Source of the DNA: Amnibacterium flavum | Lineage (GTDB): Bacteria > Actinomycetota > Actinomycetes > Actinomycetales > Microbacteriaceae | NCBI RefSeq assembly: GCF_003097495.1 | Contig: NZ_QEOP01000002.1 | Span: forward strand, 248,001-312,000 | Direction of reading: 5' to 3' | DNA length: 64,000 bases | Shown here: piece after piece, positions 9,045 to 62,104 of the stretch | Position numbering within the stretch: position 1 is the first letter of the stretch | Layout of the letters: every line of letters starts with the position of its first letter | The notes under the pieces: generated by a model | The model's database searches: none | What the model was told of the DNA's origin: nothing | What the model saw: only the letters and a program-made list of their open reading frames with translations | Translations under genes and position numbers: made by a program

Positions 9045-9054
9045 CACATTCGCG

Positions 9055-9108
9055 TTTCGCTTCGCTCAACGGGCGGGGCGGGCGGGCGTTTCGCTTCGCT
9101 CAACGGGC
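9055..9108. repeat. Two tandem copies of the TTTCGCTTCGCTCAACGGGC repeat
   Basis: Two identical 20-bp cores start at 9055 and 9089 (34 bp apart), each followed by a GGCGGG-rich tail. They sit between two convergent genes. The same repeat in slightly different form makes up the large array at 14612-15070. The second copy runs into the 3' end of the neighbouring minus-strand gene and supplies its last codons (PAR) and its TGA stop at 9100-9102. Confidence 0.85.
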
Positions 9109-10011
9109 GGGCGGGGCGGCGGCGCGTTCGCGGAGGAGCGCGGCCACCAGGGTCTCGGAGTCTCGCGGACCGAAGTGCTCCAGGGCCTGTTCGTGCAGTC
9201 GTGTCACGAGACGGCTGAGTTCGAACGGGGTCGAGGTCGAGTCGGCGATGCGGCTCACCGTCTGCAACTCCTCGACCACCCGGTCGAATCCGAAGTCGGC
9301 CGAGTAGTCCCCGGCGAGCAGCGGCGCCAGGTGCAGGTCGAGGAATCGGCTGCCGCCCGCGCTGCCGACGAGGGCATCGCCGAGTGCGTCAGGGGCCATG
9401 CCGAGTCGTTCGCCGAGCATGAGGGCCTCTGAAACGGCGACCACCTGCCCGAACCAGAGCAGGTTGGCGAGCAGTTTCACCGTCTGGGCGTCAGACGGAA
9501 CCGGTCCGACCAGGCGCACGCCGCCGGGCGACGCGAGCGGGCCGAGGAGGACTCGGGCATCGGCGACGGCGTCGTCGGCCCCGGCGAGGTGGAAGACGAG
9601 TGTGCCGTCCTCGGCGTTCGCCGGCCCGCCCCCCATCGTGGCGGTCGCCGTGCGCACGCCGTATTCGGCGGCGATCGCGCTGAGCTCATTCGTGAGAACG
9701 GGGTCGCCGCTGGTCAGGTCGAGCCAGAGCGCGCCCTCGGGCAGGTGTCGCAGCAGGCCCGCGTCACCGACGAACGCCGCGCGGATCTCGGCGACCCCGG
9801 GAAGCACGGAGACGAGGATGTCGCTCCGGGCGGCGAGCGATTCCGCATCGGAGACGACAGCTGCGCCGATCGCCGCGGCACCGGCTCGGGCTTCCGTATC
9901 GACGTCGTGCACCGACACGGCGAAGCCCGATGCGAGCAACCGACGACAGATCGGTAGCCCCATCCGCCCGACGCCGAGGACGCCTACCCGAGGCGGTGTC
10001 GGATCATCCAT
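9100..10011 (-). CDS. NAD(P)-dependent beta-hydroxyacid dehydrogenase (HIBADH family)
   Basis: Cytoplasmic oxidoreductase of the 3-hydroxyisobutyrate/tartronate-semialdehyde/6-phosphogluconate dehydrogenase superfamily. The N-terminal Rossmann fold shows VGVLGVGRMGLPICRRL (residues 8-24). The second conserved block is near SGDPVLTNEL, and the catalytic Lys lies in QTVKLLANLLWFG (near residue 177). The C-terminal helical domain is complete; total 303 residues, normal length. The ATG at 10009-10011 fits the family. The last residues PPAR and the stop codon come from an intergenic repeat, so the C-terminus has been replaced or extended by the repeat. It faces the dctA-citE pair. A role in reducing a semialdehyde made by the lyase is possible but not shown. 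Confidence 0.88.
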   Translation of the reverse strand: MDDPTPPRVGVLGVGRMGLPICRRLLASGFAVSVHDVDTEARAGAAAIGAAVVSDAESLAARSDILVSVLPGVAEIRAAFVGDAGLLRHLPEGALWLDLTSGDPVLTNELSAIAAEYGVRTATATMGGGPANAEDGTLVFHLAGADDAVADARVLLGPLASPGGVRLVGPVPSDAQTVKLLANLLWFGQVVAVSEALMLGERLGMAPDALGDALVGSAGGSRFLDLHLAPLLAGDYSADFGFDRVVEELQTVSRIADSTSTPFELSRLVTRLHEQALEHFGPRDSETLVAALLRERAAAPPAR

Positions 10012-14605: not shown

Positions 14606-14611
14606 GTTCCC

Positions 14612-15070
14612 TGCGTTTCGCTGCGCTCAACGGGCGGGGCGGGGCGGCATTCCTCGGGGTCTGCGTTTCGCTGCGCTCAACGGGCGGGCTGCACCGTCCG
14701 CTTTGAGGCCTGCGTTTCGACGGGCTCAACGGGCGGGCGGGGTGGCATTCCTCGGGGTCTGCGTTTCGCTGCGCTCAACGGGCGGGCTGCACCATTCGCC
14801 CTGGGGCCATCGAGTCCTCGGGTCCTGCATTTCGACGAGCTCAACGGGCGGGGGTAGAGCAGTATGTCTCCGGGTCTGCGTTTCGGCGCGCTCAACGAGC
14901 GGGCGAGGTGGAGCGCGTCTCGCGGGCTGCGTTTCGACGAGCTCAACGGGCGGGCGGGGAGGCCCTGCCTCCGGATTGCGTTTAGACGGCTCGATGGTGG
15001 GCCGCTTTGGGCGCGGGGCCTTCGGTTCGACGGGTTCGGCGGGAGGGCGGGGTGGCGTAATCTCGGAGAT
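14612..15070. repeat. Array of about nine degenerate ~50-bp repeat units
   Basis: Units begin TGCGTTTCG with the core TTTCGCTGCGCTCAACGGGC followed by a GGCGGG-rich tail and a variable filler. Unit starts: 14612, 14662, 14711, 14760, 14826, 14877, 14928, 14977 and a poor one at 15021. Spacing is 49-51 bp except for one 66-bp gap. Variants GACGAGCTCAACGGGC and GACGGGCTCAACGGGC occur. Units decay toward the 3' end, next to the PfkB gene. Related copies are at 9055-9108. Fillers are themselves partly repeated (GGCATTCCTCGGGGTC twice). No gene is present in the 485 bp. Confidence 0.9.
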
Positions 15071-58020: not shown

Positions 58021-58107
58021 GCCGTCGTCGATGGCGTGGTCGAATTCCTCGGCTGATCGACCGGCGTGCAGCCCGGTCGGCGAGCCGTCGTGGGGCGAGG
58101 GTTATCG

Positions 58108-59406
58108 TTGAGTCGTACCTGCGGCATCGGAGCCGTCCGACTCTCGACTCCGCAAAGGCCGCCCCCGTTGCTCTCGCCCGCCCGCACCCGCTTCGCCCTC
58201 CTGGCACTCGCTCTCGGCGGCTTCGGCATCGGCTGCACCGAGTTCGTGGCGATCGGCCTGCTGCCCGATCTGGCGCGCGATCTGCTGCCCGGCGTCTACG
58301 CGGTCAACCCCGAGGACGCCAACGCCCAGGCGGGCGCCCTCATCGCCGCCTACGCGGCGGGCGTCGTCGTCGGAGCGCCGACGATCGCGGCGTTCGCGGC
58401 CCGGTTCTCCCGCAAGAAGCTCCTGATCGGGCTCACGATCTGGTTCGCGCTCGCGACCTTCGCCTCAGCGCTGCTGCCGAGCTTCGGTCTCGTGCTGGTC
58501 GCCCGGTTCGTGGCTGCCCTCCCGCATGGTGCCTACTTCGGTGTCGCCTCGCTCGTCGCGACCTCGCTGATGGGGCCCGGCAACCGCGGCCGGGGAGTCG
58601 CGTTCGTCATCGGCGGTCTCACGATCGCGAACGTCATCGGGGTCCCGTCGATCACCTGGCTGGGACAGCAGACCAGCTGGCGGGTGGCCTATGTGGCCGT
58701 CGGCGTCGTGTTCGCCCTCACCTCGCTCGCGGTGATCCTCGCCGTTCCGCGGATGGCGGCCAACCCGGGTGCGACGGTCCGCAACGAGCTGCGCGCGTTC
58801 ACGGTGCCGCAGGTGTGGTTCGCCCTCGCGATCGGGGCGATCGGGTTCGGTGGACTCTTCTCCGCGTACACCTACGTGTCGCCGATCGCGACCGATGTGG
58901 CGCGTTTGCCCGTCGAGGTGGTCCCTCTGCTGCTCATCGCGTTCGGCGTCGGCATGACCATCGGCAACTTCGTCGGCGGCCACTACGTCGACAGGGGAGT
59001 CAAGCGCGCCATCATCGTCTTCTTCGTGGGTGTGATCGCCTCGCTCGCCGGCCTGCTGCTGACCGCCTCGGTGCCCATCCTGCTGTTCGTCTTCATCTTC
59101 CTGATCGGTGCGACCTCGTCGGCGCTGTCTCCGGCGATCCAGGTCCGCCTGATGGACGTCGCCGGTGACAGTCAGACGATCGCCGCCGCGATCAACCACT
59201 CGTCGCTCAACATCGGCAACGCGCTGGGCGCGTACCTCGGCGGGCTCACCATCGCCGCGGGTCTCGGCTACCTGTCGCCGATCGTGGTCGGGCTCCTGCT
59301 GAGCATCGCCGGCGTGGTGCTCGCACTGGTCGCGTTCGTCTTCGACCGCCGCGCCACCGCCCGCGAGGTCCCGGCCGCCCAGGCCGTCCCCATCGACGCC
59401 CTCTGA
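58108..59406 (+). CDS. MFS transporter, DHA1 (12-TM) type, AraJ-like
   Basis: About 432 residues with 12 TM segments. TM1 has GGFGIGCTEFVAIGLLPDLARDL, the pattern of AraJ and related sugar/drug efflux proteins; the TM2-TM3 loop is AAFAARFSRKKLLIGLT; central loop after TM6 includes ILAVPRMAANPGATVRNELRAF. Exporter of unknown substrate. The start is uncertain: TTG at 58108 (GAGG seven bases upstream) is preferred, TTG at 58168 (MLSPARTRF) is closest to the conserved region, and the ATG at 58066 would add a long Arg-rich leader. Confidence 0.82.
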   Translation: MSRTCGIGAVRLSTPQRPPPLLSPARTRFALLALALGGFGIGCTEFVAIGLLPDLARDLLPGVYAVNPEDANAQAGALIAAYAAGVVVGAPTIAAFAARFSRKKLLIGLTIWFALATFASALLPSFGLVLVARFVAALPHGAYFGVASLVATSLMGPGNRGRGVAFVIGGLTIANVIGVPSITWLGQQTSWRVAYVAVGVVFALTSLAVILAVPRMAANPGATVRNELRAFTVPQVWFALAIGAIGFGGLFSAYTYVSPIATDVARLPVEVVPLLLIAFGVGMTIGNFVGGHYVDRGVKRAIIVFFVGVIASLAGLLLTASVPILLFVFIFLIGATSSALSPAIQVRLMDVAGDSQTIAAAINHSSLNIGNALGAYLGGLTIAAGLGYLSPIVVGLLLSIAGVVLALVAFVFDRRATAREVPAAQAVPIDAL

Positions 59407-59472
59407 CCCGCCCGCCGAGTTCGCACCCCCGCCGCCCCCGCCCTCGGGCTCTCCTCCCTCGGTCCTCGCGCT

Positions 59473-60004
59473 CAGCAGGAATGTCGACGCTTCAGCAGGT
59501 GCGGATCCGGGATTCATTCCTGCTGAGCCGCCGGGGTTCCTGCTGAGCGCGAGGGGGCCGGAGGCCGCGGCCAGGGGAGGGTGGCCCTGTCGCTCAGCAG
59601 GCGGAATCCCGGCTTTTCCCTCGCTCAGCAGGCGGAAGTTCGTTCAGCAGGTGGAATGAGGCGGATTTCACCTGCTGGCGGGTCTTTCACCTGCTGAGCG
59701 AGAGTGACGGGTGCGTTCGGCAGGAATGTCGACGCTTCAGCAGGTGCCGATCCGGGAATTGTTCCTGCTGGGGTGTCGGGGCTCCTGCTGAGCGCGAGGG
59801 ACCCGGAGGTCGCGGCCGGGGTGTGGGTGGCCCTGTCGCTCAGCAGGCGGAAACGCGTTCAGCAGGGCTAATGAGCGGATTTCACCTGCTGGCGGGTTTT
59901 TCACCTGCTGAGCGAGAGTGACCGATGCGTTCGGCAGGAATGTCGGCGCTTCAGCAGGGGCGGATCCGGGATTCGTTCCTGCTGGGGCGTCGGGGTTCCT
60001 GCTG
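59473..60004. repeat. Structured array of CAGCAGG/CCTGCTG heptamers
   Basis: Gene-free 690-bp gap (59407-60096). Exact CAGCAGG starts at 59473, 59493, 59595, 59626, 59645, 59738, 59841, 59860, 59952; exact CCTGCTG starts at 59519, 59539, 59671, 59690, 59764, 59784, 59885, 59904, 59978, 59998. Two CGGCAGG variants (59718, 59932) complete the pairs. Heptamers come as direct pairs 19-20 bp apart, each plus-oriented pair followed by a minus-oriented pair, giving nested hairpins, for example CTCGCTCAGCAGG at 59620 with its complement at 59690-59702 (13 bp) and CAGCAGGTG/CACCTGCTG inside it. Two module types alternate 1-2-1-2-1. Confidence 0.92.
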
Positions 60005-60034
60005 AGCGCGAGGGCGGGTGTTCGGTCGCGCGCG

Positions 60035-60078
60035 AGAGCGGCCAGGCCCCGCACGGGTGCGATGGGCCTGGCCGCTCT
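60035..60078 (-). terminator. Strong hairpin terminator of the two-regulator operon
   Basis: Perfect 15-bp inverted repeat (AGAGCGGCCAGGCCC at 60035-60049, complement at 60064-60078) with a 14-base loop, starting 18 bp after the stop of the minus-strand regulator gene at 60097. Confidence 0.8.
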
Positions 60079-60096
60079 CCGAAGTCGGGTGTCGAC

Positions 60097-60750
60097 TCAG
60101 TCGGTCTGGAGGAGGATGCCGTCCTGGATGGCGCGCTTGCGCAGCGCCACCTTCGTTCCCACATCGAAGCCCGCGACCCGGTACTTCTCGCGAATGCGCT
60201 TGAGGTACGACTTCGCCGTCTCCTCCGAGATGCCGAGCTCGTACGCGACCGTCTTCACGGGCTCGCCGCCGCCGTAGAGGGCCATCACCCGGCGCTCCTG
60301 GGCGCTGAGCTTCGGGGCACCGCCGATGTCGCCGGCGTTCAGGGCCAGGTCGAGCTCAGCCGAGATGAACGACTCGCCCCGCGACGCGTTGCGGATGGCC
60401 TGAACGATCATCGACGCCTCCTCGCTCTTCACGAGGTAGCCGAGCGCGCCGGCGGCGAGTGCCTCGCGCACCACGTTCGGCTCGGAGTAGGTGCTCATCA
60501 GCACCGTGGCGACACCCGTCGTCTTCAACGTCGACAGCTTGAGCGAGATCGGGATGTTGTCCTTGAGGTCGAGGTCGAGGAGCACGACGTCGACGGGGAA
60601 CTGAGGGTGCGTGAGCAGCTCGGGCCACGTCGTCACGGCGGCGACCATGTCGATGTCGCCCGCGGCGTTGCGGATCCACTCGGTGAGAGCACCGAGAAGC
60701 ATCTTGTGGTCGTCGACGACGGCGAGAGAGATGCGGGATGGGTCGGTCAC
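60097..60750 (-). CDS. NarL/FixJ-type response regulator (1)
   Basis: 217 residues. Receiver domain (about 1-125): acidic pair in LAVVDDHKMLLGAL, phosphoacceptor Asp in VVLLDLDLKDN (near 55), Thr/Ser in VLMSTYSE, Lys in GYLVKSEE. C-terminal LuxR-type helix-turn-helix (about 145-210): LSAQERRVMALYGGGEPVKTVAYELGISEETAKSYLKRIREKYR. GTG start at 60748-60750 with AGGAGG upstream. Last gene of the operon and a paralog of the regulator at 63424 (matching LDLxLxDNIPxSxKL and TxKSYxKRxRxKYR segments). Confidence 0.92.
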   Translation of the reverse strand: MTDPSRISLAVVDDHKMLLGALTEWIRNAAGDIDMVAAVTTWPELLTHPQFPVDVVLLDLDLKDNIPISLKLSTLKTTGVATVLMSTYSEPNVVREALAAGALGYLVKSEEASMIVQAIRNASRGESFISAELDLALNAGDIGGAPKLSAQERRVMALYGGGEPVKTVAYELGISEETAKSYLKRIREKYRVAGFDVGTKVALRKRAIQDGILLQTD

Positions 60751-60784
60751 TGTGTCCTCCTGAGCGAGCGATGGGCCGGATTGG

Positions 60785-62104
60785 TCATGAGTCCGCCGGG
60801 TTGTCGGCGACGCACTCGATTTCGACACGGAGACTTCCTGCACGCATCGAGTCGACGTGCTTGCCCACTCGACGGATAGCATCCCATGTCGCCGGGTCGA
60901 CGCGACCGCGCGCCACACCCGTGGTTTCAATGGTTATCGGAACCAGAACCTTGTGCAGCGGGCCCATGTCGCGGTCCGCGGCGACGGGTCCGAGCGTGAG
61001 CTTCAGGGTGCGACCCTGCTTCGCCGCCTTCGTGCCCGCCTCGCCCGCGAGCAGCCACACGGCGGAGAACAGCCCGTCGCGCTGACGCGGGTCGAGCAGA
61101 CCGGCGAGCGTGCCCGGATCGCTGAGGGTGACACGGCGGCCGAGCATCTCGGACTCGGTGATCGCGTGATGCAGCCAGGTCTCCCGCCGACCCTCGATGA
61201 GGTGCAGACGGAGCTCGGTCGCGAGCGACGCCGACCGCTGGGCGAGCTTGGGCTCGAGGGGGAGCGGCGTCGCCCCGCTGGCGATGCCCTCGAGCAGCTG
61301 CTCCGCCGCGAGGTCGAGGCGGGCGAGCTCCTCCGACGCGAGCATTCCGACCGCGTATCGGGGCGCCGAGACGGTGCTCTGGACGAGCACCCGGTCGAGT
61401 TCGAGGGTGACCATGCGCCGGAAGCCGCGGACGATGAGCGAGCCGAGGAGCGCGGGCAGCACCGCGAGGCACAGCATCGAGACGGTCGGTACGAGGTTGT
61501 CGAACTCGATCGTGCCGTCGAGGAGATCCGCGGCGAACAGGGTCACCCCGACGACGGCCGCCGCGACCCACAGCTCCCGCGCAGCCCGCACGGCGACGAC
61601 CGCGACGAGACCCACACCGGCTGCGATGGCAGCCGAGGCCGTGCCGGCGACATCGTGCAGCGGCCAGATCGCGACCAGGTCCAGGGCGATGACGCCGGCC
61701 AGGCCGACGAGGAAGCCGATGAACATGCCGTCGGGCAGGCGGTCGTCGTTCTGCCGGATGACGATCCCGACCGCGACGAGCAGGCCCGCGAACAGCAGCC
61801 AGGCGGCGATCGCGGCGAGCGGGACCGGGTACACGGCCCACAGCTCGACGAACCGGCCGAGGCTGAAGACCGCGAGGGTTACGCAGACGAACATGGCGCC
61901 GATGCCGAGCAAGCCGGTGCCGAGGCTGCCCGCGTGCTCGTCGAGGATCCGGGAACCGGCGGAACGGGTGATGCGGACCGAGCGGGCGCGGCCCTTGCCC
62001 CGGCCCTTGCCGGGCTTCTGGGCGACGGTGCCGAGCGTGTTCTCCTCGACGCCGTCGTCGGACGGTTCCGACGGCCCACTGGCGAGATCGGCGATCGAGG
62101 TCAT
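60785..62104 (-). CDS. Uncharacterised membrane protein of the two-component operon
   Basis: 439 residues; not recognised. N-terminus (1-50) is hydrophilic and very basic (KPGKGRGKGRARSVRITR). Seven or eight TM segments span about 60-235, followed by a soluble domain (about 240-439) with a helical region AEQLLEGIASG to ELRLHLIEGRRETWLHHAITESE and a final beta-rich part LKLTLGPVAAD to LRVEIECVAD. The layout (membrane domain plus cytoplasmic helices plus a terminal alpha/beta unit) looks like a histidine kinase whose catalytic motifs are gone: I see no H-box or N/G boxes. It overlaps the kinase stop (ATGA) and may modulate that kinase (inferred). Confidence 0.75.
   Translation of the reverse strand: MTSIADLASGPSEPSDDGVEENTLGTVAQKPGKGRGKGRARSVRITRSAGSRILDEHAGSLGTGLLGIGAMFVCVTLAVFSLGRFVELWAVYPVPLAAIAAWLLFAGLLVAVGIVIRQNDDRLPDGMFIGFLVGLAGVIALDLVAIWPLHDVAGTASAAIAAGVGLVAVVAVRAARELWVAAAVVGVTLFAADLLDGTIEFDNLVPTVSMLCLAVLPALLGSLIVRGFRRMVTLELDRVLVQSTVSAPRYAVGMLASEELARLDLAAEQLLEGIASGATPLPLEPKLAQRSASLATELRLHLIEGRRETWLHHAITESEMLGRRVTLSDPGTLAGLLDPRQRDGLFSAVWLLAGEAGTKAAKQGRTLKLTLGPVAADRDMGPLHKVLVPITIETTGVARGRVDPATWDAIRRVGKHVDSMRAGSLRVEIECVADNPADS

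Follow-up and report, generated by a model that had tools for sequence, protein, structure and literature searches.

A dispersed palindromic element with a fixed heptamer geometry and its linkage to a clade of DUF559 genes in Naasia and Amnibacterium

The heptamer array at 59473-60004 of the window (the whole 64-kb stretch of DNA analysed, G000:C2:248001-312000) is probably a non-autonomous palindromic element present as five solo copies in a row, its heptamers most likely being bound by a DUF559 protein, here called X, of the same genome. The element belongs to a dispersed family of fixed geometry, its heptamers are conserved, and its copies lie mostly at gene 3′ ends; elements bracket all loci of the X clade, the geometry recurs, with different heptamers, at DUF559 genes outside that clade, most of the bracketed units tested are most similar to the solo elements of the genome they lie in, and genomes lacking the family lack X too.

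Nineteen exact CAGCAGG/CCTGCTG heptamers and two one-base variants (CGGCAGG, at 59718 and 59932) were counted again in the array, as the original prediction had reported, and its description of direct pairs 19-20 bp apart followed by mirrored pairs, with two module types alternating 1-2-1-2-1, agreed with the layouts of all five modules. Each module is an unstranded palindrome of 86-89 bp in which a direct heptamer pair, spaced 19 or 20 bp, is followed by a centre of 26 bp (25 in one) and the mirror image. Module 1 (59465..59553), with the layout (spacing/centre/spacing) 20/26/20 at 59473, has the 8-bp termini CTCGCGCT/AGCGCGAG and an RNA fold of −63.5 kcal/mol (z −8.5); module 2 (59618..59704) is 19/26/19 at 59626; module 3 (59710..59798) and module 5 (59924..60012) are both 20/26/20, at 59718 and 59932 respectively, and have CGGCAGG as first heptamer; and module 4 (59833..59918), 19/25/19 at 59841, has a centre one base short. 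An extra outer heptamer was found as a single copy on the plus strand at 59595..59601, 31 bp outside module 2. The same +31 heptamer was observed at other type-19 copies of G000. Many type-19 copies (among them those at L021, L022, L024, L025, L028 and L029) have such an outer heptamer, and layouts reach 31-19-26-19-31, with four and sometimes six heptamers per element.

The heptamer pair occurred eight times in the window, all within the array, and not once in 100 dinucleotide shuffles; heptamers on their own are frequent, with 50 in the window versus 8.5 expected, so the array signal resides in the pairing and spacing and not in the heptamer alone. Tandem Repeats Finder (TRF) covered the array in part (59621-60014, a 214-bp unit in 1.8 copies with 90% matches). 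Two convergent genes face the array: an MFS transporter gene (58066..59406, plus strand, start codon uncertain, best NCBIfam match Cmx/CmrA-like and below cut-off), which ends 66 bp ahead of the first array heptamer, and a gene for a NarL/LuxR-type response regulator (60097..60930, minus strand, best NCBIfam matches response regulators and all below cut-off), whose uncertain start was placed at 60750 by the gene caller used here. CAGCAG is the site of the type III restriction enzyme EcoP15I; no reason was seen to tie the heptamers to it, because the seventh base is conserved too. A second repeat family, GCGTTTCG..GCTCAACGGGCGGG, forms tandem arrays at 9052-9119 and 14611-14956 of the window.

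More copies across the G000 genome were found by the heptamer-pair pattern, dispersed as the search suggested in the original prediction might have found them, but with fixed and not random spacing. A three-heptamer pattern matched five of nine genomes of the genus, with none for the reversed control, and in the family as a whole 13 of 398 genomes from four of 85 genera; among the matches listed in named records, most were from Naasia and Amnibacterium, and G000 is congeneric with the Naasia-genus genomes G003, G004, G006 and G008. A sequence-only profile built from 62 CAGCAGG-family copies yielded at least 50-156 rows in seven Naasia-genus genomes and at least 30-132 in six Amnibacterium-genus genomes, 148 candidates being scored per genome, so that rich genomes may be undercounted, and about two rows corresponding to one copy because the element is palindromic. 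Two genomes from genus g72, one of them Plantibacter, had 21 and 23 rows, and the other 15 genomes searched had 0-4, among them G001, G002 and G024 with two or three rows each and best E values of 0.001-0.004. Nine matches outside Naasia and Amnibacterium were inspected by eye, of which most were coding-like or other hairpins and one, L122 of Plantibacter flavus, is a relative of the element. Three matches in viral contigs were judged by eye, none of them element-like, and Rfam gave nothing above its gathering scores, its six weak microRNA-model matches all lying below. The JABBOB contigs (L097, L112 and others) titled Acidobacteria bacterium G2_29 correspond to G237 of the Amnibacterium genus and are probably mislabelled. 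A different repeat at L235:836-900 has dozens of matches in G002, a genome without CAGCAGG elements, and several in G008.

Among 159 copies, 100 had the layout 20/26/20 and 53 the layout 19/26/19. Most loci had been fetched by a pattern fixing one arm at 19-20 bp, so the free arm provides the fair test of geometry. Given three exact heptamers, the fourth was exact in 198 of 251 matches, and in 243 of 251 it kept the mirrored spacing precisely and had no more than one mismatch (one element being countable twice, once on each strand), yet the spacers matched the consensus of their own genome at only ∼64-71%, bearing out the selection on spacing that the original prediction had proposed. Divergence between neighbouring array copies was 2.5% in heptamers (27/1092), 15.0% in the loop (111/741), 23.9% in spacers (240/1006) and 44% in the outside flank (408/924), as determined on the 39 of 44 pairs with a spacer-plus-loop identity of at least 60% (the five below 60% were dropped); these copies had been found via their heptamers, and so the fourth-heptamer test on the 251 matches is the fairer one. 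In G007 (L188-L203) and G005 (L205), many copies carry exact heptamers at three positions, spaced 19 or 20 and then 44-45 bp, as would result from the loss of an inner site in one of the two arms.

The partner gene X encodes 303 aa at G000:C1:1035741-1036649, outside the window, and lies between two elements. Its product has a DUF559 domain (PF04480, 37 bits versus the Pfam cut-off of 20.6) and sub-threshold matches to the MTES_1575 nuclease and AbiEi_4. A protein search of 18 genomes retrieved X relatives at 42-60% identity, plus remnants, and the profile matched on both sides of 13 of 13 X-clade loci, in 11 genomes. Eight of these, in G004, G006, G007, G237 (two), G188, G318 and G127, had been selected for their protein homology before any element was known at them, and the profile found every one bracketed; G007 passed by profile alone (E 2e-5 and 2e-4) and failed the heptamer-blind and strict pair tests. 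At the G349 locus one element was already known, and its gene fragments (39-41% identity) were put in the X clade by synteny only; the remaining four came from element loci, three of which had supplied four of the 62 profile rows. Heptamer pairs had been found at just two of 30 DUF559 loci by a strict pair test, and the link with DUF559 was at first judged weak, a judgement that was reversed because of the protein search and the profile. By synteny the 13 X loci occupy four genomic places, of which six Naasia-genus genomes share one, Amnibacterium has two and G003 has one to itself; they are thus not 13 independent events, and G001 and G002 have kept the shared Naasia-genus place without X. 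X looks like a vertically inherited gene and not a mobile one.

Within the two genera, 11 of 13 genomes with elements were found to have X or a remnant of it, as against none of three without elements. The element-bearing genomes without detected X were G005 (68% complete) and G281; G008, G127 and G349 had X remnants or fragments only, with elements still present. When unit elements were scored against solo profiles from which they had been excluded, the own genome ranked best in six of nine units and second in three, four of the 13 units not being scored. G003 has two element subfamilies, and each brackets one of its two X genes, with a match in both spacing and sequence. The units of G004 and G006 carry CAACAG- heptamers and most sampled solo copies there carry CAGCAGG, a sample biased by having been found through similarity to CAGCAGG. 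At L235:3239-4150, the element adjoining X overlaps its stop codon and supplies the stop and a C-terminal SLSR tail. A glyoxalase-family gene (L123:1561-1947, MAG SP80_2) also lies between two elements, so that bracketing is not exclusive to DUF559.

The geometry was also found with other sequences, by a heptamer-blind search for four near-equal heptamers of any sequence in mirrored arrangement, which gave 0, 1 and 0 chance matches in three mononucleotide shuffles of 215 kb. In G024, which has no convincing CAGCAGG elements, perfect GTGTAGG tetrads flank a DUF559 gene on both sides, and another perfect GTGTAGG tetrad lies ∼350 bp beyond another unit of that genome; GCGTAGG and GTTCAGG tetrads occur at other DUF559 genes. 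At a two-sided score of at most 11 mismatches of 56, nine of ten intact X genes and eight of 25 other DUF559 genes were bracketed, compared with none of 700 mononucleotide shuffles and none of 19 control loci, and most of the eight non-X genes had heptamers other than CAGCAGG; a score of 12 added two more DUF559 genes and four shuffles, and 15 of the 25 other genes scored worse. In a tree of DUF559 proteins, which took in the 25 non-X genes with retrieved DNA and left out three remnant X genes, the ten intact X genes formed one clade with a support of 100/100, the GTGTAGG/GCGTAGG trio of G024, G281 and G318 grouped at 96/89, and the CAACAG- pair of G004 and G006 at 100/95. Of the non-X DUF559 loci read with the CAGCAGG profile, only L320 (Plantibacter genus) was positive on both sides; L293 had one element ∼1 kb off, and L286 and L329 had weak one-sided matches. 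None of three DUF559 genes on Tsukamurella plasmids was bracketed. The bracketing rule therefore covers part of the DUF559 family only, given these three and the 15 of 25 other genes that were negative.

Among the alternatives, the one that survives best, though we hold it unlikely, is a host-function element at gene ends of the REP/BIME type, with a conserved nucleoid or termination protein or gyrase binding the heptamers between convergent genes and the placement at DUF559 genes incidental. The genomic placement of the copies and the protection of their heptamers in situ are in its favour. None of the 159 copies fell within genes called by a simple codon-usage script; the copies are intergenic, mostly at gene 3′ ends, and their junctions were 65 convergent, 41 tandem and 9 divergent (8 more lay at locus edges), as against 66, 367 and 105 element-free ones, a strong preference for convergent junctions (Fisher odds ratio 9.3, p = 1e-22); at tandem junctions the element lay nearer the stop of the upstream gene in 33 of 41. 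A host role does not, however, predict that one nuclease clade is bracketed at 13 of 13 loci, that further DUF559 genes show the geometry with different heptamers, or that the family is lacking in close relatives with the same neighbouring genes.

The positions of the copies mostly differ between species. Over 123 sites in ten genomes, no two sites in different genomes were flanked by homologues on both sides, and a few had one neighbour in common. The junction of the MFS transporter and response regulator genes held no heptamer pair, by eye, in any of the eight other genus genomes, so that the conservation in relatives on which the original prediction hung was seen for the family (seven of nine genus genomes) and not for the array's own place. 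That junction (L226-L233) holds other palindromes in other species, by eye, for example AACTGCCCAGTTCTGCCG in G001 and CTACTCGACGACC repeats in G002. One place behind a dehydrogenase-like gene is shared by four species, each with its own element version, and the element beside X is of type 19 in G000 versus type 20 in G008. No convincing target-site duplication was found in 128 combinations of boundary and length, a test of low power in high-GC flanks, and the clearest combinations above the within-genome shuffles rest on 2-6 of 158 copies.

We consider it improbable that the DUF559 unit is instead a defence or self-regulation module, of which the flanking palindromes would be operators or protected sites and the dispersed ones its sites and not products of transposition. 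In PADLOC, X gave weak matches to AbiEi and homing-endonuclease models (E 2e-5 to 9e-4) and a second DUF559 protein gave none; two relatives encoded on plasmids carry the annotation AbiEi-family antitoxin domain protein; and the nuclease motif is conserved, a point that speaks for the preferred reading as well, with E209, D236 and H253 present in all 35 aligned proteins, D248 in 34 and E246 in 33, residues that by family analogy may be catalytic. A PDB sequence search gave three matches, all weak (E 0.02-0.03) and one to an endonuclease-like protein over the nuclease domain, and the structure predicted for one X protein as a monomer had a mean pLDDT of 41.5, too low for use. Against such a module, the two elements are ∼1 kb apart and leave room for little besides X, and the dispersed copies are mostly at different places between species, with lineage-specific termini and spacers, which points to copying.

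That the repeats serve as RNA hairpins, either as bidirectional terminators or as stabilisers of 3′ ends, is in our estimate very improbable, even though twelve modules folded at −38 to −79 kcal/mol and the copies lie at 3′ ends. The palindromic consensus of termini and spacers is lineage-specific, and strong covariation across lineages therefore follows (score 0.310 versus 0.144 shuffled). Within genomes, by contrast, the two arms of a copy did not covary beyond the consensus, by either Watson-Crick or G-U pairing (all pooled z within 1.5), and among spacer pairs G-U, at 8.9%, was not more frequent than A-C, at 10.0%; no terminator-like site of a stem plus T run was found in 59300-60150, and a hairpin has no need of invariant heptamers. 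Arms that decay independently after a symmetric start, with heptamers and spacing held, are the pattern expected of protein-binding sites in DNA, and what is selected thus looks, by its sequence pattern, to be DNA sites rather than RNA pairing. The interpretation given in the original prediction is therefore supported in its first part, selection on heptamers and spacing over the intervening sequence, and unsupported in its second, nested RNA hairpins as the conserved entity, stable as the folds of single copies are. Chance or an assembly artefact, namely GC-rich repeats fortuitously near DUF559 genes, is hardly credible: heptamers are common, and G003 is so rich in copies that some gene between two elements is expected, but a two-sided score of at most 11 was reached by none of the 700 mononucleotide shuffles or 19 control loci, and the eight homology-chosen X loci were all bracketed.

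Under the preferred reading, in which X binds the heptamers of its own genome, a mechanism can be proposed for how such a repeat might spread. The protein is predicted to have an AbiEi-like N-terminal region and a DUF559/MTES_1575 nuclease domain of the PD-(D/E)XK type. The N-terminus would bind the heptamers as a multimer, whose geometry would set the 19/20-26-19/20 spacing; the nuclease would nick or cut at the palindrome, and repair or replication could then copy the palindrome to new places. The new copies that survive would chiefly be those landing close after a stop codon where two genes converge, and arrays like that at 59473-60004 could arise by tandem duplication. The linkage of gene and element is observed; binding, cutting and mobilisation by the nuclease, and the part played by the N-terminus, are what we infer from it.

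Such a system would, as best read by analogy, be REPIN/RAYT-like but built on an unrelated nuclease. As described in the consulted parts of the respective papers, RAYT genes are bracketed by REPs, in E. coli by BIME-2 on both sides (PMC2817692), and each of three RAYTs in P. fluorescens SBW25 has REPIN clusters next to it (PMC3116915). To the extent covered by those parts, the present repeats resemble REPIN/RAYT systems (REPtrons) in being extragenic palindromes of tens of copies, with clusters and lineage-specific subfamilies, and in bracketing a low-copy, vertically inherited enzyme gene, with subfamily and enzyme paired within one genome (PMC2817692, PMC3116915). They differ in that the bracketed enzyme is a DUF559 protein and the repeat a heptamer tetrad of 86-89 bp, compared with REPs of 20-40 bp. 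A Y1 HUH tyrosine transposase (PF01797, RAYT-type) was detected in none of 20 genomes, compared with five of 14 control genomes, and neither a GTAG nor a CGTC tag is present in the consensus of the 62 CAGCAGG-family copies; the letters GTAG do occur in the GTGTAGG and GCGTAGG heptamers, though there they recur in each of the four sites and do not mark the palindrome foot as a tag would. Because the repeats lack both the transposase and the tag, the system is an analogue of REPIN/RAYT and not a member; it is the absence of the defining enzyme that sets it apart, and by behaviour alone these would be REPtron-like repeats. According to the portion of PMC3733652 consulted, REPs are found preferentially at unidirectional and convergent junctions, and those with a CGTC tag have no association with transposase genes; the present elements share with the CGTC-tagged REPs of that portion palindromic repeats at gene ends without a transposase, and differ in tag and size and in the bracketed nuclease gene, which that portion does not report (PMC3733652).

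Arrays of alternating palindrome units and a junction preference are likewise features of E. coli BIMEs, the gyrase- and IHF-binding REP mosaics, as far as the consulted parts of the literature describe them, from which our elements are distinguished by the four-heptamer geometry and the lack of a RAYT. MITEs are short, non-autonomous, dispersed inverted-repeat elements that share their ends with a longer gene-bearing unit. Here too, a short dispersed non-autonomous inverted-repeat element exists beside a gene-bearing unit with elements on both sides, which would be a candidate autonomous relative and is syntenic between species; unlike in MITEs, no target-site duplication was found, the gene-bearing unit has no known transposase, and the entire element, not its ends alone, is palindromic.

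The statement in the original prediction that no known element family matched was in accord with the literature and databases searched: among the listed titles and abstract openings, in a search whose scope left aside subscription journals and preprints, none joined DUF559 to palindromic repeats and none concerned repeats of Naasia or Amnibacterium. We know of no established function of DUF559 proteins. The linkage of a palindrome to a predicted nuclease suggests a kind of mobile repeat that we have not found described. Whether a wider generalisation holds seems to us evenly balanced, namely that a repeat class has arisen in convergence with REPIN/RAYT, its heptamer tetrad (fixed 19-26-19) being recognised and its palindrome spread by a DUF559/VSR-like PD-(D/E)XK nuclease, with heptamer specificity evolving with the protein, and that many actinobacterial DUF559 genes may own a repeat family. 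If true, a clade of DUF559 proteins would gain a function as keepers and spreaders of a palindromic repeat, a second and unrelated enzymatic solution to the REPIN/RAYT arrangement would exist, and one class of intergenic repeats in high-GC actinobacteria would be explained. Paired nuclease-heptamer specificities would then also be readable from sequence; the heptamer types observed were CAGCAGG, CAACAGG, GAGCAGG, CGGCAGG, GTGTAGG, GCGTAGG and GTTCAGG, among others.
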